Under the pieces are notes generated by a model that saw only the letters and a list, made by a program, of their open reading frames with translations, searched no databases and was not told the DNA's origin. Position numbers and translations under genes: made by a program. Shown here in pieces: positions 5,941 through 18,053 of a stretch of 64,000 nt of DNA. This DNA comes from Phycisphaerales bacterium (lineage in GTDB: Bacteria; Planctomycetota; Phycisphaerae; Phycisphaerales; UBA1924): NCBI GenBank assembly GCA_029213305.1, contig JARGPA010000006.1, positions 1-64,000 on the forward strand. The letters are read 5' to 3'. Position 1 is the stretch's first letter. Each line of letters begins with the position of its first letter.

Positions 5941-6095
5941 TGACCCGCTTTGAGTCCAAACGAGGCCAACACAGTCCCTTAGTACCTCTATAACAGCCTT
6001 TAGACGTTGATAGAAAGGCATGTAGATTGCATGGCATGCAATAGGTCGAGAATTCGATTCTCTTCGTCTCCGCTTACAGAACACGCTGCCAGTGT
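5941..6095 (+). repeat. tRNA-Ala(GGC)-derived repeat, copy B
   Basis: Same order as copy A: TGACCCGC; AGTCC at 5953, AGGCC at 5963 and AGTCC at 5973 (again 10-bp phased); a GCCTTT...AAAGGC dyad; anticodon arm ATTGC-ATGGCAT-GCAAT (6026-6042); T arm with one mismatch at the loop; acceptor strand CGTCTCC ending at 6071. The following terminator has decayed to a weak AACAC...GTGTT stem without a T run. No tRNA 5' half is present. Confidence 0.8.
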
Positions 6096-6213
6096 TGTAA
6101 TACAGAATATTGGTTATTTCCTGTTCGTGACTTACCGATGGTTTTTTCTCTTGAGCAAATCCGAGAAATGTGCCCGGTGCAATACGCTTCAACTCCGAAT
6201 TGTCTGATTGTTG

Positions 6214-6241
6214 TTGTGCAAGTGATCTTTCACTTGATAAT
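6214..6241 (+). promoter_or_regulatory. Putative promoter with a palindromic operator in its spacer
   Basis: TTGTGC (6214-6219) and GATAAT (6236-6241) are 16 nt apart, upstream of the phosphodiesterase gene. The spacer is nearly filled by the inverted repeat CAAGTGA-TCTT-TCACTTG (6219-6236), placed as a repressor operator would be. Seen by eye only. Confidence 0.35.
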
Positions 6242-6324
6242 GTTTGATCAAGCAGATACTTTCCAGAGAGCTTGATGGGATTTCAAACAGACAAGACTGA
6301 TTTTGTCGCATCAGTTAGGGTGAG

Positions 6325-7122
6325 ATGAGTATAAGAGTGTTGAACATCACCGATCTGCATGTCATTCCCGAAATCGGCGGTGAAATTTATGATGTTGATT
6401 CGTATTTATCTCTTGTACGTGTAGTTGAGAGTGGGCTTACTCACGATCCTGATCTGGTTATTGTAACTGGAGACATGGTTGAGCATGGAGATACCGAGTC
6501 ATATAAACGGGTTCGGCAACTTTTAAACTCCATTGATCTGCCGGTATTTGTACTGCCAGGTAATCACGATTCGCCAAATCACATGACGAACGATCTGTGT
6601 GGAGAGAATATTCATTATGTAGACTTTTATGATCTAGATGGATGGCGGTTGATCTTTCTTGATTCGCATGTAGAGGGTAAGGGTTATGGTGAGTTATCTG
6701 CAGATCAGCAATTGATGTTCCAGAAAGCACTCGAACAGTCGTCTTCTCGTCATGTGCTTGTTGCACTCCACCACACACCGATTATCCTTTGCCCGTCTTT
6801 CAACTGTCAACTCAATGGCGCCCGAGAGTTTCTCGAAGACCTTTCGTCGTGGCCCAATGTGCGTGCTGTAATTGCGGGTCATGCACATGTTGAGTGCGAC
6901 GCAAGATACAAAGGTATATATGTGATGACGACACCTGCTACCAGCGCGCAGTGCATACATGAGCCTGCAACTACTTGCAAGGATCTTGTGGATTTCCAAG
7001 CTTCCCATCATCTCGATCCTTCGAAACACGGCTTCCGAATTCTAGATCTTGAATCAGATGGGACATTCCGCTCAGAGGTTCACTGGGTATTGAATCCAGA
7101 TACTAAAGTGGTGCCAAGTTGA
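6325..7122 (+). CDS. Calcineurin-like metallophosphoesterase (CpdA/Icc-like)
   Basis: A 265-residue cytoplasmic two-metal phosphoesterase. The five family motifs are visible in order: DLH (D10, H12), GDMVEHG (D50), GNHD (N80-D82), ALHHTP, and GHAHVECD. The set and spacing fit class III cyclic-nucleotide phosphodiesterases such as CpdA, so cAMP hydrolysis is plausible, but related enzymes act on other phosphodiesters. It is the first gene of the cassette between repeat copies B and C and is followed after 46 nt by an EamA permease in the same direction. A promoter with a palindromic spacer lies about 85 nt upstream. Confidence 0.85.
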   Translation: MSIRVLNITDLHVIPEIGGEIYDVDSYLSLVRVVESGLTHDPDLVIVTGDMVEHGDTESYKRVRQLLNSIDLPVFVLPGNHDSPNHMTNDLCGENIHYVDFYDLDGWRLIFLDSHVEGKGYGELSADQQLMFQKALEQSSSRHVLVALHHTPIILCPSFNCQLNGAREFLEDLSSWPNVRAVIAGHAHVECDARYKGIYVMTTPATSAQCIHEPATTCKDLVDFQASHHLDPSKHGFRILDLESDGTFRSEVHWVLNPDTKVVPS

Positions 7123-7168
7123 AACAGGAAATGCTGGGATTCCAGAATGCGTGGGTACAGGGGATGCG

Positions 7169-7999
7169 ATGCCAGTAAGCGTTATCGTTCTGGTTCTTAT
7201 GGCCGCTCTTTTTCATGCGATATGGAATGGGTTGATCAAGAGCGGGAATGATCCTCTGATGGAGAGCATGCTTTTATGCATAGCCTGGATTGTGATCTGC
7301 ATGATTCTAATACCAGTCTTGCCTATTCCGAATAGGCAAAGCTGGCCGTATATTTTTATGGCGGTCATCATTCATGTGTGCTATTTTCTGTTACTTTCAA
7401 AGAGTTACAGCATGGGTGACTTCAGCGCTGTATACCCAGTCGTGCGTGGTTTGCCTCCTCTGATTGTGTTGTTGGTGAGTGTGCTTTTTATCGAAGAGCC
7501 ACTGAGTTTAGCGGGGGCAACTGGAGCATCTTTGATAGCAGGAGGAGTTTTGGTACTTGAGTTCGGTAACAAATGCAGATCCGTAAGAATGCTGTTCTTC
7601 GCATTTTTAACAGCTTTGATGATTGCTTTTTATACAGTAGTTGACGGGTTAGGTGCTCGCAAGAGCGGGCATAGCACCAGTTTCTTTGCTTGGTTTACAC
7701 TGCTTCAATCGATAATTTATGTGGCGATTGTTTTTCGTGTTCGAGGTAGAACGAAATGCGTCAAGCACATTCGTAGTAAGTGGAAACTCGGGTTCCTTGG
7801 TGGTTTGATGTCATTTTCAGCATATTCAATTGTATTATGGGCAATGACAAAGGCACCCATTCCATTTGTTTCTGCATTAAGAGAAACTTCTGTACTCTTT
7901 GCAAGTGTCATTGCAATTGTGTTCTTAGGCGAGCCTGTTCGGAAGAACCGGATTTTCTCTGCGGCGCTCATATTCGCTGGGATTCTGATATTGAAATAG
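7169..7999 (+). CDS. EamA/DMT-family permease
   Basis: About 276 residues with roughly ten hydrophobic helices in two EamA halves, as in the drug/metabolite transporter superfamily. The ATG at 7169 is preferred over an in-frame GTG at 7151 because AGGGG precedes it at normal distance and the protein then opens directly with a membrane helix (MPVSVIVLVLMAALFHA). The second half carries a typical conserved end (FLGEPVRKNRIFSAALIFAG). Substrate cannot be predicted. It closes the second cassette; its stop is only 11 bp before repeat copy C. Confidence 0.85.
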   Translation: MPVSVIVLVLMAALFHAIWNGLIKSGNDPLMESMLLCIAWIVICMILIPVLPIPNRQSWPYIFMAVIIHVCYFLLLSKSYSMGDFSAVYPVVRGLPPLIVLLVSVLFIEEPLSLAGATGASLIAGGVLVLEFGNKCRSVRMLFFAFLTALMIAFYTVVDGLGARKSGHSTSFFAWFTLLQSIIYVAIVFRVRGRTKCVKHIRSKWKLGFLGGLMSFSAYSIVLWAMTKAPIPFVSALRETSVLFASVIAIVFLGEPVRKNRIFSAALIFAGILILK

Positions 8000-8010
8000 G
8001 TCATTGAATC

Positions 8011-8252
8011 TGACCCGCTGCCTGACCCCGGATTGAGTCTAAATGTGTTCACACCAGCCCCTACGAATTTTGAATACCATTCATTCAAGCCTGATTGCGG
8101 GGTAAGTGCGTTGCATGGCATGCAAGAGGTTGACAGTTCGATTCTCTTTGTCTCAACTTCAAGAAATCGCTGCTGGCTATGAGCCAGTGGCGGTTTTTGT
8201 AGGATTGAGTGAGTTGTTGATTTCAGCTTGGACTAGTGACATGCCCCCAATA
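8011..8252 (+). repeat. tRNA-Ala(GGC)-derived repeat, copy C
   Basis: TGACCCGC is followed by a short insertion, then degenerate 10-bp-phased sites (AGTCT at 8036, TGTTC at 8046, AGCCC at 8056). The tRNA part runs 8110-8156: perfect anticodon loop ATGGCAT with stem GTTGC/GCAAG, T arm with one mismatch, acceptor TGTCTCA. A strong terminator follows. Similarity to copy A continues to a GACTAGT...ACTAGTC dyad with CATGCCCCC in its loop. Confidence 0.8.
8168..8198 (+). terminator. Rho-independent terminator inside repeat copy C
   Basis: An 11-bp stem, CGCTGCTGGCT against AGCCAGTGGCG with two G-T pairs and a 3-nt loop, followed by GTTTTT. It is in the same position as the copy A terminator and probably also ends the EamA transcript. 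Confidence 0.75.
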
Positions 8253-8369
8253 ACTAGTCAATTTTCTATGCGAGTGATTACTTAGAATGGGCGTATTTGA
8301 AGGCAGGAAATCACCGCTTGGGAACGGTGTTCAGCGAGGTTGATTATCAACAAAATCAGAGAGGCGGAG

Positions 8370-8610
8370 GTGCACCTTGGTCAATGGATAAGGTCCCCGA
8401 AGTCTCACGCAAACTGGTTGTCTCCAGCAGACTTACTACTACTGGCGAAAGGAATATGGTGGGCTCAGGACCAAAGGGGAAAGTAACTCAAAGATCTGGA
8501 GAAGGAAAACACCCGGCTTAAGAAGCTCGTCGCTGATCTGAGTATTGACAAGTTAGAGATTGCAAATCAAGAAGTTCAAAGAATACTGAGTTGGCGATTC
8601 TATCAGGCGT
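8370..8610 (+). pseudogene. IS3-family OrfA transposase remnant (frameshifted)
   Basis: Pieces of an IS3-type OrfA appear in successive frames: DKVPEVSRKL, then QQTYYYWRKEYGGL from 8425, then LKDLEKENTRLKKLVADL from 8487. These are the helix-turn-helix and leucine-zipper parts of OrfA. At least two frame changes and a stop break the reading, no OrfB follows, and no terminal inverted repeats were recognised. A 74-codon open frame over 8297-8521 is an accident of this decay. The remnant lies just after repeat copy C, so the array has taken transposon hits. Confidence 0.75.
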
Positions 8611-8652
8611 AAACTAAAGAGGTCTTGAACAAGCTTATAAAAAAGGATACTC

Positions 8653-9831
8653 GTGATGCCCGAATTACTACCGACTCTTTATGGCGCAAACTGGTGCCCG
8701 GATTGCCGCAACACAAAGATTTTCCTTGGCGAAATGGATGTCGAATACAAGTGGGTTGATATTGACGGCGATGCTGATGCCAATGAATACATTGCCTCAG
8801 TGAATAACGGGAAGCGGGTGATTCCGACTGTTGTGCTGGGGTCTGGAGATGTACTTGTCAACCCATCAAATGCAGAGTTGGCTGAAGCGCTCGGAATTAA
8901 GCGCGAAGCAAGTCAGAGTTTTTATGATGTAATTGTCATCGGCGCTGGTCCTGCCGGATTGACAACTGCATTGTACCTTGCTCGTGAAGGACAACGGGTG
9001 CTTGTGCTCGATAAAGGGCCGATTGGTGGACAGGTCGCGCTGACAGATCGGCTCGATAACTTCCCAGGATTCCCCGATGGAATTGAAGGGCGTGAGTTCT
9101 CTGAACGTCTTGGGCGTCAAGCCATGCGGTTTGGTGTTGAGATTCTTACTGCTACTGAGGTTGTCAAAATTGAATCATCAGATTCTCAGTGCTCTGTTTC
9201 TACTGCGACAGGACAGCATTATGGTGCTACGGCCTTGTTAATTGCAACTGGATCAACCTACCGTCGGCTCAATGCGCCAGGTGAAGAACAGTTTATTGGA
9301 GCAGGCGTTCATTTTTGTGCGACTTGCGATGGACCGTTCTATAAGGGCAAGAGTGTTGCGGTCATCGGGGGGGGGAATAGTGCTGCAGAAGAGAGTTTGT
9401 TCTTAACTCGATTTGTTGATCATGTAGATGTACTCGTGCGAGATGAGGCGTTCATCGCCAGCAAGTTAGTATCTGAGAAAGTCTTGGGGCATGATCAGAT
9501 CGATGTACACTTTCAGAGTTCGGTAAAACGGTTCGAAGGTGAGGAATCACTGGAACGGATCGTGGTCGAGAGTCCTGGTGGCGAACGGAGTATTGATGTC
9601 GCAGCCGTATTCCTTTTCATTGGACTGTTGCCAAACACAAAATGGCTTCCCGATGAGATAGATTTAGAACAAGGCGGATTCATTAAAACGGCCATCAATC
9701 TTGAAACATCGATGCGTGGGATATTTGCTGCAGGTGATGTTCGAAGCGGAAGCACAAAGCAGGCCGCAAGTTCTGCAGGTGAAGGCGCTGCAGCTGCGTT
9801 GATGATCCGAGATTATTTGAATCAAAGATAG
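8653..9831 (+). CDS. Glutaredoxin-thioredoxin reductase fusion
   Basis: A 392-residue cytoplasmic flavoprotein. Residues 1-85 are a glutaredoxin-like domain with active site WCPDC (Cys about 15 and 18) and the cis-Pro segment RVIPTVV. From about 92 comes a complete low-molecular-weight thioredoxin reductase: FAD site GAGPAG (about 97), redox pair CATC (about 222-225), NADPH site GGGNSAAEE, and the second FAD motif GDVR near the end. The enzyme should pass electrons from NAD(P)H through FAD and CATC, with the fused glutaredoxin as built-in acceptor. The start is GTG 8653 or the next codon, ATG, after an AAGGA. It heads the cassette between copies C and D. Confidence 0.9.
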   Translation: MMPELLPTLYGANWCPDCRNTKIFLGEMDVEYKWVDIDGDADANEYIASVNNGKRVIPTVVLGSGDVLVNPSNAELAEALGIKREASQSFYDVIVIGAGPAGLTTALYLAREGQRVLVLDKGPIGGQVALTDRLDNFPGFPDGIEGREFSERLGRQAMRFGVEILTATEVVKIESSDSQCSVSTATGQHYGATALLIATGSTYRRLNAPGEEQFIGAGVHFCATCDGPFYKGKSVAVIGGGNSAAEESLFLTRFVDHVDVLVRDEAFIASKLVSEKVLGHDQIDVHFQSSVKRFEGEESLERIVVESPGGERSIDVAAVFLFIGLLPNTKWLPDEIDLEQGGFIKTAINLETSMRGIFAAGDVRSGSTKQAASSAGEGAAAALMIRDYLNQR

Positions 9832-12507: not shown

Positions 12508-13224
12508 ATGGATGAATGGCAGTTATGTTGGACCAGTGAGCGATCTATTCTCGTGAAGGCGCCTGAATTCGCCGCGCATTACGCCGCTTCAAGTTTGTTT
12601 GCGGCTTGGGTTCATTCACATTGTTCAGACATGATTCGATCAGTGATACCCTCAGCAACTGGTGTGTTGATCGAGTTCAATATCCAACAATGCACAATCA
12701 ATGATTCGTGGTCGACGGTTGTGCGATTGGTTGAGTCATACGATCGTGAGTACAACACTACGCAATCGTCTGATGCGTTAGGTGCTCGAGAGATACTGAT
12801 TCCGGTTTGTTATGATGAATACTTTGCCCCTGATCTGAATCTGATTGCTCATCATCTCAACTGCCATCCTGAAAGAATAATTGAGCTACATACATCCGTT
12901 CAGTACCATGTCGAAACGATGGGGTTTATGCCAGGGTTTGGGTATCTGAGTTCGCTTCATGATTCGTTACGGCTCCCACGAAAAGGAACACCGCGAACAC
13001 AAGTCCCCGCAGGCAGTGTTGGGATCGCAGAGAATATGACTGCTGTCTATCCCCACCAGAGTGCAGGCGGCTGGCATCTCATCGGGCGTACCCCGATACA
13101 ACTATTTGACCCAAACCAGAATCAGCCCGCGCTGCTGAGAGTAGGTGATTCAGTACGGTTCGAACAAATCACACATGATGAGTTCAATAGTATTACTCAG
13201 TCTCATCAGTGGTGGGAGGACTGA
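12508..13224 (+). CDS. pxpB: 5-oxoprolinase subunit PxpB
   Basis: A 238-residue protein of the KipI/allophanate-hydrolase-subunit-1 family. The conserved C-terminal block is clear: FMPGFGYLSSLH, LPRKGTPRTQVPAGSVGIA, then GGWHLIGRTPIQLFDP and the closing VRFEQI. With PxpC and PxpA it forms the ATP-dependent enzyme that opens 5-oxoproline (pyroglutamate) to glutamate, a metabolite-repair reaction. Its stop overlaps the next start (TGATG at 13222), so the two genes are translationally coupled. The old KipI name (kinase inhibition in Bacillus) is less likely to reflect its role given the PxpC and PxpA partner. Confidence 0.9.
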   Translation: MDEWQLCWTSERSILVKAPEFAAHYAASSLFAAWVHSHCSDMIRSVIPSATGVLIEFNIQQCTINDSWSTVVRLVESYDREYNTTQSSDALGAREILIPVCYDEYFAPDLNLIAHHLNCHPERIIELHTSVQYHVETMGFMPGFGYLSSLHDSLRLPRKGTPRTQVPAGSVGIAENMTAVYPHQSAGGWHLIGRTPIQLFDPNQNQPALLRVGDSVRFEQITHDEFNSITQSHQWWED

Positions 13225-14918
13225 TGGGGAATATCGTGGTTATTCATCCTGGGGTCCTGAGCAGTGTGCAGGATACTGGTCGTAACGGTTATCGACATGT
13301 AGGTGTTCCGAAGAGTGGCGCGTTTGATTCTGTCTCGCTTCGTATTGGGAATCGGTTGCTTGATAATTCTGATTCTGATGCCGCGATCGAAATGACCATG
13401 TCGGGTGGTGAGTTCAGGTTTACGGCATCAACGGTTGTTTGCTTGACTGGAGCTAATGCAGATGATGCTGTAATCAAAATTGGAATCCATCAAGAAAAAT
13501 TACACCATCGGCAACCGACTGTGATTCCAACTGGCAGCATGCTGAAGATAGGGCGGTTGACAAACGGCTTGCGAGGGTACCTATGTATTGCAGGTGGGAT
13601 CCAATCTCCACAGGTATTGGATAGTAGATCTTCACTAGTTTCACTACCTGATGCCGGACTTGGCAGCGCCATAAAGTCAGGTGACAGGCTGCCATTTGAT
13701 GAGTATCAAACAACAGAAACTGACCTGTTGGTTAGTTCTAAATTCGAAGATGAGAATTTGATTCATGATGGATCTACTGTATTAAGGATTGTTCCCGGTG
13801 CGCATTACGAGTTGTTTAGTAAATTGCAATGCGCAGCGTTGGGGGATCAGAGATTCCAGGTGTCAGATCAAAGTAACAGAGCAGGTGTTCGTCTGTCGAA
13901 GAGTAAAATTCCTGGGGTGATTCCAATCAGTCTTTCAAGCGAAGGAACGCTGCAAGGGTATGTTCAAGTCCCTCCATCAGGTGAGCCCATCATACTCGGT
14001 GTTGATGGTCCAACGACAGGAGGGTACCCTGTTATCGCGTGCGTCATCGAGGCAGATCAGCATGTGCTGGCCCAGTGCGAAATCCGCGAGCAGTTCCGAT
14101 TTCGTTGGGTCAACCTCGAAGATGCTCAGGAGGCGTTGCGGGACCAGCATGCAGTGATTCAGTCGGTCAAGCCACGGAGTCCTAAAAAGATGTCGTGGGA
14201 TTACAAAAGATCTGTTCGGCCAAGTGTTCTCTTCGGCTGCGATACCGGTGAAGCTCTTTCGGGTCCAGGCCGCGATAGAGAGTTGGCATTGCTTCCTTAT
14301 GTGTCTGCGGTGAGCATCGCCTGTGGAGGACACGCTGGAGATCAAGATTCGATGCGTGAAGCTTTATCAGCTGCTTGTGAACACGGCTGTATCATCGGAG
14401 CGCATCCTTCGTACCCAGATCGAGATGGATTCGGGCGGCGTGAGATCGAGATTCGCCGAGAAGTGTTAGGATCATCACTTAAAGAACAGCTCAATACATT
14501 TTCAGATATTGCAAAGGAATGCAACGCAAAGGTCTCATACATCAAAGCGCACGGAGCGCTCTATCATGCGGTTTCTCGTGATACTTCGTTTGCAGAATGG
14601 TACTGGGGTATTTGCACATCGATTTTCCCACACGCACGATTCGTCGGACCGCTGGGTTCAGTTACTCTTGATCATTTTACATCCTCTGGTATTCCTGTGT
14701 TCGTAGAGGGATTCTGTGATCGGGTGTATGAATCAAACGGGACACTGCGAGTAAGGAGTGTTGCGGGAGCATGCATTACAGATCCGGAGATTGCAGCTTC
14801 TCAAGCAGAGCGTCTTATCCAAGATTCCAGCTGCCAGTTTCTATGCGTGCACAGTGATACTGAGAATGCGATCAATATTGCACGATCAGTCCATGAGCGG
14901 CTCTCCTTCGCTCTTTAG
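13224..14918 (+). CDS. Fused 5-oxoprolinase subunits PxpC-PxpA
   Basis: About 564 residues. ATG 13224 is preferred over GTG 13209 because GGGAGGA stands 5 nt upstream and the ATG overlaps the pxpB stop. Residues 1 to about 315 are PxpC (KipA/allophanate hydrolase subunit 2): VLSSVQDTGRNGYRHVGVP near the start, later PGVIPISLSSEGTLQGYVQVP and GPTTGGYPVIA. After a short linker, residues from about 333 are PxpA (LamB/YcsF): GCDTGEA, SIACGGHAGD, IGAHPSYPDRDGFGRR, IKAHGALYHA. PxpA is normally a separate protein of about 245 aa; here it is slightly short, with HSD where many homologues have HGD. The fusion supports PxpC and PxpA acting as one complex. Confidence 0.9.
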   Translation: MGNIVVIHPGVLSSVQDTGRNGYRHVGVPKSGAFDSVSLRIGNRLLDNSDSDAAIEMTMSGGEFRFTASTVVCLTGANADDAVIKIGIHQEKLHHRQPTVIPTGSMLKIGRLTNGLRGYLCIAGGIQSPQVLDSRSSLVSLPDAGLGSAIKSGDRLPFDEYQTTETDLLVSSKFEDENLIHDGSTVLRIVPGAHYELFSKLQCAALGDQRFQVSDQSNRAGVRLSKSKIPGVIPISLSSEGTLQGYVQVPPSGEPIILGVDGPTTGGYPVIACVIEADQHVLAQCEIREQFRFRWVNLEDAQEALRDQHAVIQSVKPRSPKKMSWDYKRSVRPSVLFGCDTGEALSGPGRDRELALLPYVSAVSIACGGHAGDQDSMREALSAACEHGCIIGAHPSYPDRDGFGRREIEIRREVLGSSLKEQLNTFSDIAKECNAKVSYIKAHGALYHAVSRDTSFAEWYWGICTSIFPHARFVGPLGSVTLDHFTSSGIPVFVEGFCDRVYESNGTLRVRSVAGACITDPEIAASQAERLIQDSSCQFLCVHSDTENAINIARSVHERLSFAL

Positions 14919-15302: not shown

Positions 15303-15493
15303 ATGTGGCATAATGCTTTGTGAATAATATGTTTATGAATTTATAGATATGCTTCGCGTGTAGAATTGGAAGTACACATGTGTTCATAGGTTGTGTAAAT
15401 ATTATCACAAAACATGACAATTTGCGATGCAGTATATGATTGCACTTGATAAAGTAATTAATACTTGGCCTTATAGGCAGAAAGAAGGGCTTG

Positions 15494-16771
15494 ATGTATT
15501 TAAAATTATTGACATCGATGATTTGCATATCGTCTGCTGTAACTACTTCATTTGCAGACTCTCAAAATCTTGATTTGGTTCTAGCTCTAGAAGTAAATGG
15601 ATCTAGTTTGGTTGAATCAGATTTGAACGGCGATTGCGAGATTGACATGGCAGATGTTGCAATAGCCATTGCAGCAAGAATGGATACAGATCCTGCTGTT
15701 ATGGAAGATTTGGATGGTGACGGTTTAATCACCGGGGCCGACACGCTATTGTTAATTCAAAGTATTATATCGGGAAGTATGAAGGATACTGACGGTGATG
15801 GTGTCGTCACGGTAGGTGATGCTGTAGTTGTCGCTGGAGCCTTGTATCAAAACGGAATCAACAACGCCTCCGATACAGATGGAAATCAGATTGTCGATGT
15901 TAATGATGTCTCTTCTGTGTTGATAAAAGTTGGAGATACTGTCGATTTGGATACTGCTTCGGTGGCATCAACAGTCTTCAATCTAGTTGTCCAAACAGTT
16001 CTTGCTATGGCCAATGGCTTAGTGGCGATTGAAATTTGCGATTCAGGAAACCCTAGAAATTGGCCTCCAGAGGACCATCAAGAATCAGTTAGCCGATTTT
16101 ATCCTTCTGATCATAATCGTGTACGAAGTAGGCAATGGCCGGCAAATCATATGTTTTCGATATCAGAAGAATGGGAAGAGGGGGGGCACTCTCTACAATT
16201 AAGTAAAGATGAATCTTGGCCTTCTAATCATACATATGAAGTGTCGTCATATTGGGGCGGGACAGAACCTGATTGGCCTAATGATCCTGTGACTCATGAT
16301 GGAGAAACGAGCAGTAACTGGCCGCCAAATCATGCAAACTACATCAGTTCAGAGCGTCCTGGAGATCATGCAGCGGAAATTTCATCGGTTTGGCCAGCAA
16401 ATCACAATGAAGATCTTTCTGCGGATCAAATTTGGCCAGATGCATCAGATCATGAATTTAATATTTCTCATTCATGGGATCATTCGACAGCCTCAAGTGC
16501 ATCGTGGCCTCCAAGTCATGTTAATCAAGTTTCGGGAACTTGGGTTCCGGGGCATACTTCAAGAACAAGTACTGGTTGGCCACCGTCGCATTCCTCTCAC
16601 GCATCATCAAATTGGCCGCCTGACACTTATCCAGGCACTTGGCCACCTAACCATAATGGCACCATCTCTTCAGGTTGGGGAGACCCGCCAGATGCTCCTC
16701 CAGGTTGGTTCCCTCCAGGGCATGCGTACATTCCGAGTGGGACAATGTTCTTGCCTATATTGGACGATTGA
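15494..16771 (+). CDS. Exported protein: dockerin-like Ca loops plus long WPxxH repeat region
   Basis: About 425 residues from ATG 15494 (AAGGG upstream), with a signal peptide ending about TTSFA. Residues about 38-150 hold four EF-hand/dockerin-type calcium loops (DLNGDCEIDMADV, DLDGDGLITGAD, DTDGDGVVTVGD, DTDGNQIVDVND). From residue about 190 (nt 16061) to near the end it is made of some 15 imperfect repeats of 12-14 residues with the pattern W-P-x-[NSD]-H-x4-S (QWPANHMFSIS, NWPPNHANYIS, SWPPSHVNQVS, TWPPNHNGTIS). I know no named family for this repeat. The next protein carries two more copies at its C-terminus. AT-rich gene; role unknown, likely surface or periplasmic. Confidence 0.8.
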   Translation: MYLKLLTSMICISSAVTTSFADSQNLDLVLALEVNGSSLVESDLNGDCEIDMADVAIAIAARMDTDPAVMEDLDGDGLITGADTLLLIQSIISGSMKDTDGDGVVTVGDAVVVAGALYQNGINNASDTDGNQIVDVNDVSSVLIKVGDTVDLDTASVASTVFNLVVQTVLAMANGLVAIEICDSGNPRNWPPEDHQESVSRFYPSDHNRVRSRQWPANHMFSISEEWEEGGHSLQLSKDESWPSNHTYEVSSYWGGTEPDWPNDPVTHDGETSSNWPPNHANYISSERPGDHAAEISSVWPANHNEDLSADQIWPDASDHEFNISHSWDHSTASSASWPPSHVNQVSGTWVPGHTSRTSTGWPPSHSSHASSNWPPDTYPGTWPPNHNGTISSGWGDPPDAPPGWFPPGHAYIPSGTMFLPILDD

Positions 16772-16814
16772 TAAAGTCCATGTAAAGTTGAAAGCATTAA
16801 TTTAGGATTTCAAA

Positions 16815-18053
16815 ATGCCCTATCTGTTGCTCTTTTATATGTGCATCTCTTCAAATTTGTACGGACAGTCCGATAGCAAAATATTTCTCAACGAGAAGGC
16901 TATAAAATATTGGTGTTCCGACAGTGGAAAATTTGGGATGGGTTCCTTTCCAGACCAAGCCTTTGTAAAGGCGTCAGCCAAAGACATAGATCTCGAAAAT
17001 CCAGATACAGTTCTTCTATACATCCTTGAGTCTCTTCAGGAAATTAACAAGGTATATCCGACAGAGCGATATTATTACTATGCGTTTGTCTACAAAGATA
17101 AACAGATTGCAGGGAATATCCGTTTTGCGGATATCGAACAAGGTTTGGTTCATATCGCGTATTATGATATTCACGACCAGGAATATATTGTCTCAAAAAC
17201 ATTTTCAGGAAACGAGCAAATTGACATAGCTTATACTAAGGAAAACGGTGTTGTTAAGTTAGAGTATAAAGGCGTAGAAAAAACTTTTGTTTTGAATACT
17301 GAAGATTTGGATCGCTCGTCAATGGCTAAATTATTGTCGTCAGAGAAATATATCTCTGGAATTATGGATGAATCAGGTTACAAGTTTCATTTGATATACG
17401 ATGAGTCTTCAACGTATTTTTTCTATGTGCTTAATGAAGAAAATATGCCCGAAATTATTTCAAAAATTACTACAGAAAATGGGCACGAACTTTATATAGG
17501 GTCACGTTCGAGATTCGTTTTTTATCATGATGATGATTTATCGCGAAAAATTCTTATTGGGGTACTTCAAAGTAGCGTTCAATCTAATAACTACTTTGAT
17601 GGTCCGTTTGATCAAGTCCCTCCAAATCTCTCTGTAAGAGATCAGTTGCAGCAAGCGTATCCGTACGTGAGATTGCGAGGCGGGATTGATGAGCATGGCA
17701 ACTTCAAGCAGCAAGATGGGCAAAGGGTTGCTGTTTCGCCGTATATGCAATACGGTACAGTTAGGGAATTGGCTAAAAATGTGGATTTGCTTTATCGTCC
17801 GATGGAGCCTGGAAACTTGAAGTGGATTATGATGTGTCATGAATGGAAGCGTGACTTTCACCGTACATTGAATGAATACCTAGATAGCGATGATTTAACA
17901 CCCGTTACACACTCCAAAGATATCAGTAGAAAATGGCCATCGAATCATTGGTCAAAAAATAGTCAAACTTGGAAATTAGACCATTCTTATCAAACGAGTA
18001 AACAATGGGGTGCAAATGTCGCGGCTCCTTCCGATGAGGATGGGCTCGATTAG
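16815..18053 (+). CDS. Exported protein with two C-terminal WPxxH-type repeats
   Basis: A 412-residue protein with an N-terminal signal peptide (MPYLLLFYMCISSNLYG). The body, to about residue 365, is a charged, mostly beta-like region that I do not recognise. The tail contains two units of the repeat that fills the preceding protein: KWPSNHWSKNS and TWKLDHSYQTS, then KQWG and an acidic end. It starts 43 nt after the previous gene and overlaps the next, so all three are probably one operon. The shared tail suggests that the two proteins bind the same partner, assemble together, or are sorted alike. AT-rich codon use matches its neighbours in the operon. Confidence 0.75.
   Translation: MPYLLLFYMCISSNLYGQSDSKIFLNEKAIKYWCSDSGKFGMGSFPDQAFVKASAKDIDLENPDTVLLYILESLQEINKVYPTERYYYYAFVYKDKQIAGNIRFADIEQGLVHIAYYDIHDQEYIVSKTFSGNEQIDIAYTKENGVVKLEYKGVEKTFVLNTEDLDRSSMAKLLSSEKYISGIMDESGYKFHLIYDESSTYFFYVLNEENMPEIISKITTENGHELYIGSRSRFVFYHDDDLSRKILIGVLQSSVQSNNYFDGPFDQVPPNLSVRDQLQQAYPYVRLRGGIDEHGNFKQQDGQRVAVSPYMQYGTVRELAKNVDLLYRPMEPGNLKWIMMCHEWKRDFHRTLNEYLDSDDLTPVTHSKDISRKWPSNHWSKNSQTWKLDHSYQTSKQWGANVAAPSDEDGLD

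Follow-up and report, generated by a model that had tools for sequence, protein, structure and literature searches.

Organization of the locus

The window, that is, the whole stretch of 64,000 nucleotides from a Phycisphaerales genome that was analyzed here, contains two neighbouring genes on the forward strand. The first (15491..16771, +) encodes a repeat protein of 426 aa and was read from a TTG at 15491, an ATG at 15494 being equally possible. Its N-terminal hydrophobic segment (15494..15556, +) is a probable signal peptide as judged from the sequence, and residues 2–16 form a helix in the model. Four DxDGDG-type calcium loops follow (aa 43–145; 15617..15925, +), for which AlphaFold gave a pLDDT of 75–95. 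Dockerin_1 (PF00404) matched the protein with 18.4 bits (E=0.0026), below the Pfam cut-off of 22.9; we consider "dockerin-like" a fair term for this region because four loops are visible even though the score stays under the cut-off. An earlier note on this DNA, made from the letters alone, had already reported the four loops, and they were found again here. The Trp/Pro/His/Ser repeat spans aa 191 to about 416, and its 17 H-x4-[S/T] units (16061..16738, +), modelled with low confidence, take the form W-P-x-N-H-x3-[hydrophobic]-S. Except for the weak dockerin match, nothing in Pfam or NCBIfam was found for the protein, in agreement with the earlier note, which could assign the repeat to no named family. 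An ORF of 169 aa in another frame overlaps the array (16296–16805, +) and is most likely spurious. Upstream of the two genes (12508–14918, +) lies a 5-oxoprolinase-type gene set with carboxyltransferase C/D and A/B domains and a LamB/YcsF domain.

The second gene (16815..18053, +; alignments A1 and A3) follows the repeat gene at a distance of 44 bp and encodes a protein of 412 aa, here referred to as the partner. Its conserved domain (aa ~60–320; 16992..17774, +) consists mostly of beta strands with pLDDT mostly of 83–97, and contains the signature D-G-P-F-D-Q at aa 262–267 (17598..17615, +), which was taken from the 60-sequence alignment A3. The C terminus carries two H-x4-S units of its own, WPSNHWSKNS and WKLDHSYQTS (17934..18005, +). 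The earlier note had seen the repeat and had missed this conserved neighbour with its two terminal units.

Conservation of the H-x4-[S/T] unit

The window protein has 18 His in its repeat region, and 17 of them are followed by Ser or Thr at position +5. When the region was shuffled 20,000 times, the mean number of +5 matches was 3.85 and the maximum 11, against 17 observed, and chance is therefore excluded. The repeat described earlier is thus real, and the figure of about 15 units given for it is correct. The spacing in its motif, W-P-x-[NSD]-H-x4-[IVLT]-S, is off by one, and the motif as written has 0 matches; the corrected form in the window is W-P-x-[NSD]-H-x3-[hydrophobic]-S. Only 7 units in the window contain WPxxH, the spacers between units are irregular, and the Ser at +5 from His is nearly invariant. 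What is conserved is H-x4-[S/T], with W-P-x-N as a local decoration. Tandem Repeats Finder detected no tandem repeat in the DNA of the region, and the +5 Ser residues of the array are encoded by both codon boxes (TCN 9, AGY 8). Since the DNA is no longer repetitive and both boxes are used, the amino acid is maintained by selection.

The same unit was found in 38 repeat proteins, and +5 was the best His-to-Ser/Thr offset in all 38, with Ser or Thr at +5 from 1161 of 1243 His. Each protein holds 15 to 74 regularly placed His. The unit period differs among proteins (6, 7, 8, 9/10, 12 or 16 residues) and the +5 distance is constant. Among 1182 residues at +5, in regions selected by H-x4-S alone, there were 1053 Ser, 50 Thr, 3 Gly, 2 Ala and 0 Cys; Thr thus substitutes 50 times against 3, 2 and 0 for the other small residues, which indicates that the hydroxyl matters. 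Both the fixed +5 spacing and the preference for a hydroxyl are established by these comparisons at the level of sequence.

The proteins carrying the motif are unrelated to each other, with dockerin-like and propeller proteins among them, and a dockerin-like part is absent from most relatives of the system. Trp and Pro are missing in most relatives outside Phycisphaerae, and the charges flanking the units are wholly unlike between clades: the repeat protein of L095 (Hyphomicrobiales) is lysine-rich, and that of L107 (SAR202) is acidic. In L094 (Legionella gresilensis) the H-x4-S units are directly joined, and L065, L066 and L073 have H-x4-T units with W-P. The most regular repeat is that of L060, labelled as an archaeon, with Ser at +5 in 18 of 18 His and a period of 12; the Phycisphaerales proteins and L060 share a period near 12 and retain W and P. 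The contig of L060 also encodes an FttA-type protein (PF17214), which we take to be archaeal.

The partner family

Sixty partner sequences were aligned (A3). The alignment has 10 invariant columns, 8 of them polar, and the invariant residues include D185, S187, R244, N258, D262, D266, Q267 and R304; an invariant His, Cys or Lys is absent, and no recognisable catalytic signature was seen. The N terminus is lipobox-like or hydrophobic in many partners. Those of the Phycisphaerae clade mostly bear 1–3 units themselves, and a WPxNH-type tail is present in 14 of the 17 partners of this clade in the tree.

The AlphaFold model of the partner, which we read as confidence values and secondary structure, has a pLDDT of 83.6 and a pTM of 0.83. 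Foldseek returned 403 matches with E<=10 in the PDB, none with E<0.001 (best E 7e-3, TM 0.1), and no match with E<0.001 among viral models. A profile of the partner had 0 matches among PDB sequences, and the window partner had none in PHROGs. Searches of the 60 members against Pfam and NCBIfam gave scattered matches of one or two members each, at chance level, and no family common to the members. Judged from these searches, the partner family is an undescribed one.

Association of the repeat with the partner

A first contig scan with the repeat itself as the query found no relative, and it was the partner gene that gave access to the family: 140 partner relatives were found by contig scan, and 80 of them were kept. 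Related genomes hold orthologous repeat-partner pairs (repeat proteins L037, L038, L039, L043 and L046–L059), and relatives occur across phyla, so that the repeat is not limited to a single strain, and the objection that the earlier note had foreseen for that case falls away. Partners together with H-x4-[S/T] carriers were found in Planctomycetota, Hyphomicrobiales, SAR202 Chloroflexota, Thermodesulfobacteriota, Legionella and the archaeal contig. One of 11 Legionella genomes tested has the partner, and a search by protein found none in phages and plasmids. The partner of L048, labelled Leptolyngbya sp. PLA1, is almost identical to that of the Phycisphaerales locus L052, and L048 is probably a mislabelled bin.

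An ORF with an H-x4-[S/T] cluster lies at 58 of 84 partner loci (in a few cases one site appears twice, from two collections, or one genome contributes several loci), within 400 bp in 53 cases and upstream on the same strand in 52, versus 0 of 741 control ORFs. From these gene neighbourhoods, the pairing of motif and partner across phyla is clear. Some of the 26 loci without a repeat ORF are on short contigs, and 13 that have adequate flank lack a nearby repeat (L068, L074, L080, L083, L084, L089, L091, L099, L100, L116, L119, L122 and L124). For such repeat-free loci, about a dozen, either the repeat gene lies away from the partner gene or the partner has a different target. In the genomes of L067 and L070, an H-x4-S propeller protein is encoded elsewhere (L129 and L130). 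In L067, L070 and L119 (around 6000–9750), the partner gene is flanked by era and a recO-like gene, both named by eye, which makes for a housekeeping neighbourhood. A variant repeat, H-x7-[S/T]-K-Y, adjoins the partner in L096 (6779–7747) and L098 (5995–7881), and the partners of L062, L096 and L098 form one clade of the partner tree.

Two tandem repeat proteins precede the partner in L050 (5042–7731), L039 (8755–11406), L048 (5776–7955), L051 (5567–7923) and L052 (5582–7817); the second one of L048 and L052 has, by eye, a lipobox-like signal. In several species, namely Rhodomicrobium G441 and related genomes (L158, L156, L159 and L160), two small secreted H-x4-S proteins (FHNRARSHWRWGS) adjoin the partner, and related small proteins of the HWRWGS type were seen in L072, L075, L077 and L106. 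We found no convincing conserved neighbour beside repeat and partner, and the ABC/HlyD genes that lie downstream in the window were not found again beside the pair at other loci.

We further compared the presence of repeat and partner in two groups. The partner is present in 35 of 199 Hyphomicrobiales genomes, and the propeller proteins bearing the repeat in many of these 35 belong to a larger family, found in 67 genomes. Sixty propeller ORFs were compared, 25 from partner-positive and 35 from partner-negative genomes; repeats were present in 22 of the former and in none of the latter, and the 3 repeat-free propellers of partner-positive genomes are paralogues away from the partner. The association has a Fisher p of 1.6e-13 with shared ancestry ignored, a value that overstates independence because the compared genomes are related by descent. 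Among 392 Planctomycetota genomes, true repeat matches occur in 2, both partner-positive; a third match (G203, L128) was rejected as a repeat protein, being an LRR gene in the wrong reading frame. In the genomes compared, the repeat is absent where the partner is absent.

Comparison with known systems

Among named systems, Hxs comes closest; it consists of the His-Xaa-Ser repeat protein HxsA and the radical SAM enzymes HxsB and HxsC (NCBIfam TIGR03979 and TIGR03978). A maturation logic has been proposed for it (Haft and Basu, as cited in PMC9062424). In both systems, the repeat protein has fixed His/Ser motifs and a dedicated partner next to it. The spacing is H-x-S in Hxs, whereas it is H-x4-S here: Ser or Thr stands at +2 from 4 of the 18 window His and at +5 from 17. 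The Hxs enzymes are radical SAM proteins, whereas the partner described here, a mainly beta protein, is unrelated to them. HxsB (TIGR03978) had no match in the window genome (G000), the Legionella genome (G457), the archaeal genome (G458) and G463; of 11 genomes tested, one had a match above the cut-off. The window repeat protein has no HxsA match in NCBIfam; L094 alone resembles HxsA4 (29 bits versus a cut-off of 55), and the HxsA match of L120 falls in another region of the protein. Membership in Hxs is ruled out by the spacing together with the absence of HxsB from several genomes.

Cohesin-dockerin pairs also combine a repeated module with a binding partner, and the calcium loops of the window protein are dockerin-like; however, the dockerin score is below the cut-off, and Pfam gave no match for the partner family, cohesin included. 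Another system with a dedicated enzyme and a Ser-rich tandem-repeat substrate is that of the CotH kinase, which has CotB and CotG as repeat substrates and acts with ATP inside the spore-forming cell. The present system differs from it: the partners are extracytoplasmic by their N termini, and no member matches a kinase family of Pfam.

Possible functions of the proposed two-gene system

We propose, with a probability of about 0.5, that the two genes form an extracytoplasmic system in which a motif-bearing secreted protein is paired with a partner that recognises its units and probably modifies them. The first gene would supply a secreted protein with many copies of H-x4-[S/T], borne in the window by a dockerin-like protein, and the second a membrane-anchored or secreted partner made mainly of beta strands. 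Each unit would be recognised singly as a linear peptide, a His and a hydroxyl at a fixed distance, rather than as part of a folded solenoid. It is quite probable, we infer, that the partner recognises the motif directly. That the partner is an enzyme acting on the Ser/Thr hydroxyl is a reading we hold with somewhat less than even confidence; the invariant D, S, R, N, D, D, Q and R residues and the many-copy layout of the substrate argue for it, and the counterpoint is that invariant polar residues would suit a groove for binding no less than an active site. More tentatively, the partner may be the first member of a new family of extracytoplasmic Ser/Thr-modifying enzymes, with the His serving recognition or reaction. 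The most extreme form of this reading would be a His-Ser/Thr crosslink in each unit (histidinoalanine-like), and if this were true, secreted bacterial and archaeal proteins would carry arrays of small rings. A role in the surface matrix, adhesion or the envelope is our guess.

The motif, the partner family and its predicted fold are all unmatched in what was searched; no description of the H-x4-S motif and system was found in the open-access literature searched. A conserved motif and its dedicated partner, unnamed in the libraries searched and without a structural match, point to extracytoplasmic chemistry or recognition that is not yet known. A string of hypothetical repeat proteins also becomes a testable substrate-partner pair.

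The pair might instead act by non-covalent docking, with a surface-receptor partner binding many H-x4-S units on a repeat protein that serves as a multivalent scaffold, a layout comparable to that of cohesin-dockerin pairs. The lipobox-like or hydrophobic N termini of many partners, the units borne by most Phycisphaerae partners themselves and the dockerin-like and propeller proteins among the carriers would all fit it, but the strict need for a hydroxyl, with Ala and Gly almost absent, exceeds what most docking motifs require, and we regard docking as possible and rather doubtful. The regular placing of 15 to 74 His per protein could also suggest a metal-binding array, in which the His, possibly aided by Ser/Thr, would coordinate zinc or copper and the partner would help to load or sense the metal. 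Such an array seems improbable, as Ser and Thr are poor metal ligands, each unit has a single His with no conserved second ligand, the partner is without an invariant His or Cys, and the flanking charges differ completely from clade to clade.

Least probable of all is a structural repeat, either the stacked-aromatic fibre that evenly spaced Trp and His had suggested in the earlier note or a solenoid. The repeats of Phycisphaerales and of the archaeal L060, which have a period near 12 and keep W and P, would agree with it, but homologous systems span periods of 6 to 16, the spacers in the window are irregular, and W and P are mostly absent outside Phycisphaerae. A solenoid would keep its period and not merely the distance within the unit, and for this reason the array is not read as one. 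The structure prediction lent no support to a fibre or a solenoid either: AlphaFold gave a pLDDT of about 28–56 over the repeat region, and this and the variable period jointly point to short linear motifs that are read singly, as the proposed two-gene system would have it. Tiny helical turns appear in the modelled repeat region and tend, at low confidence, to span H+2 to the Ser.
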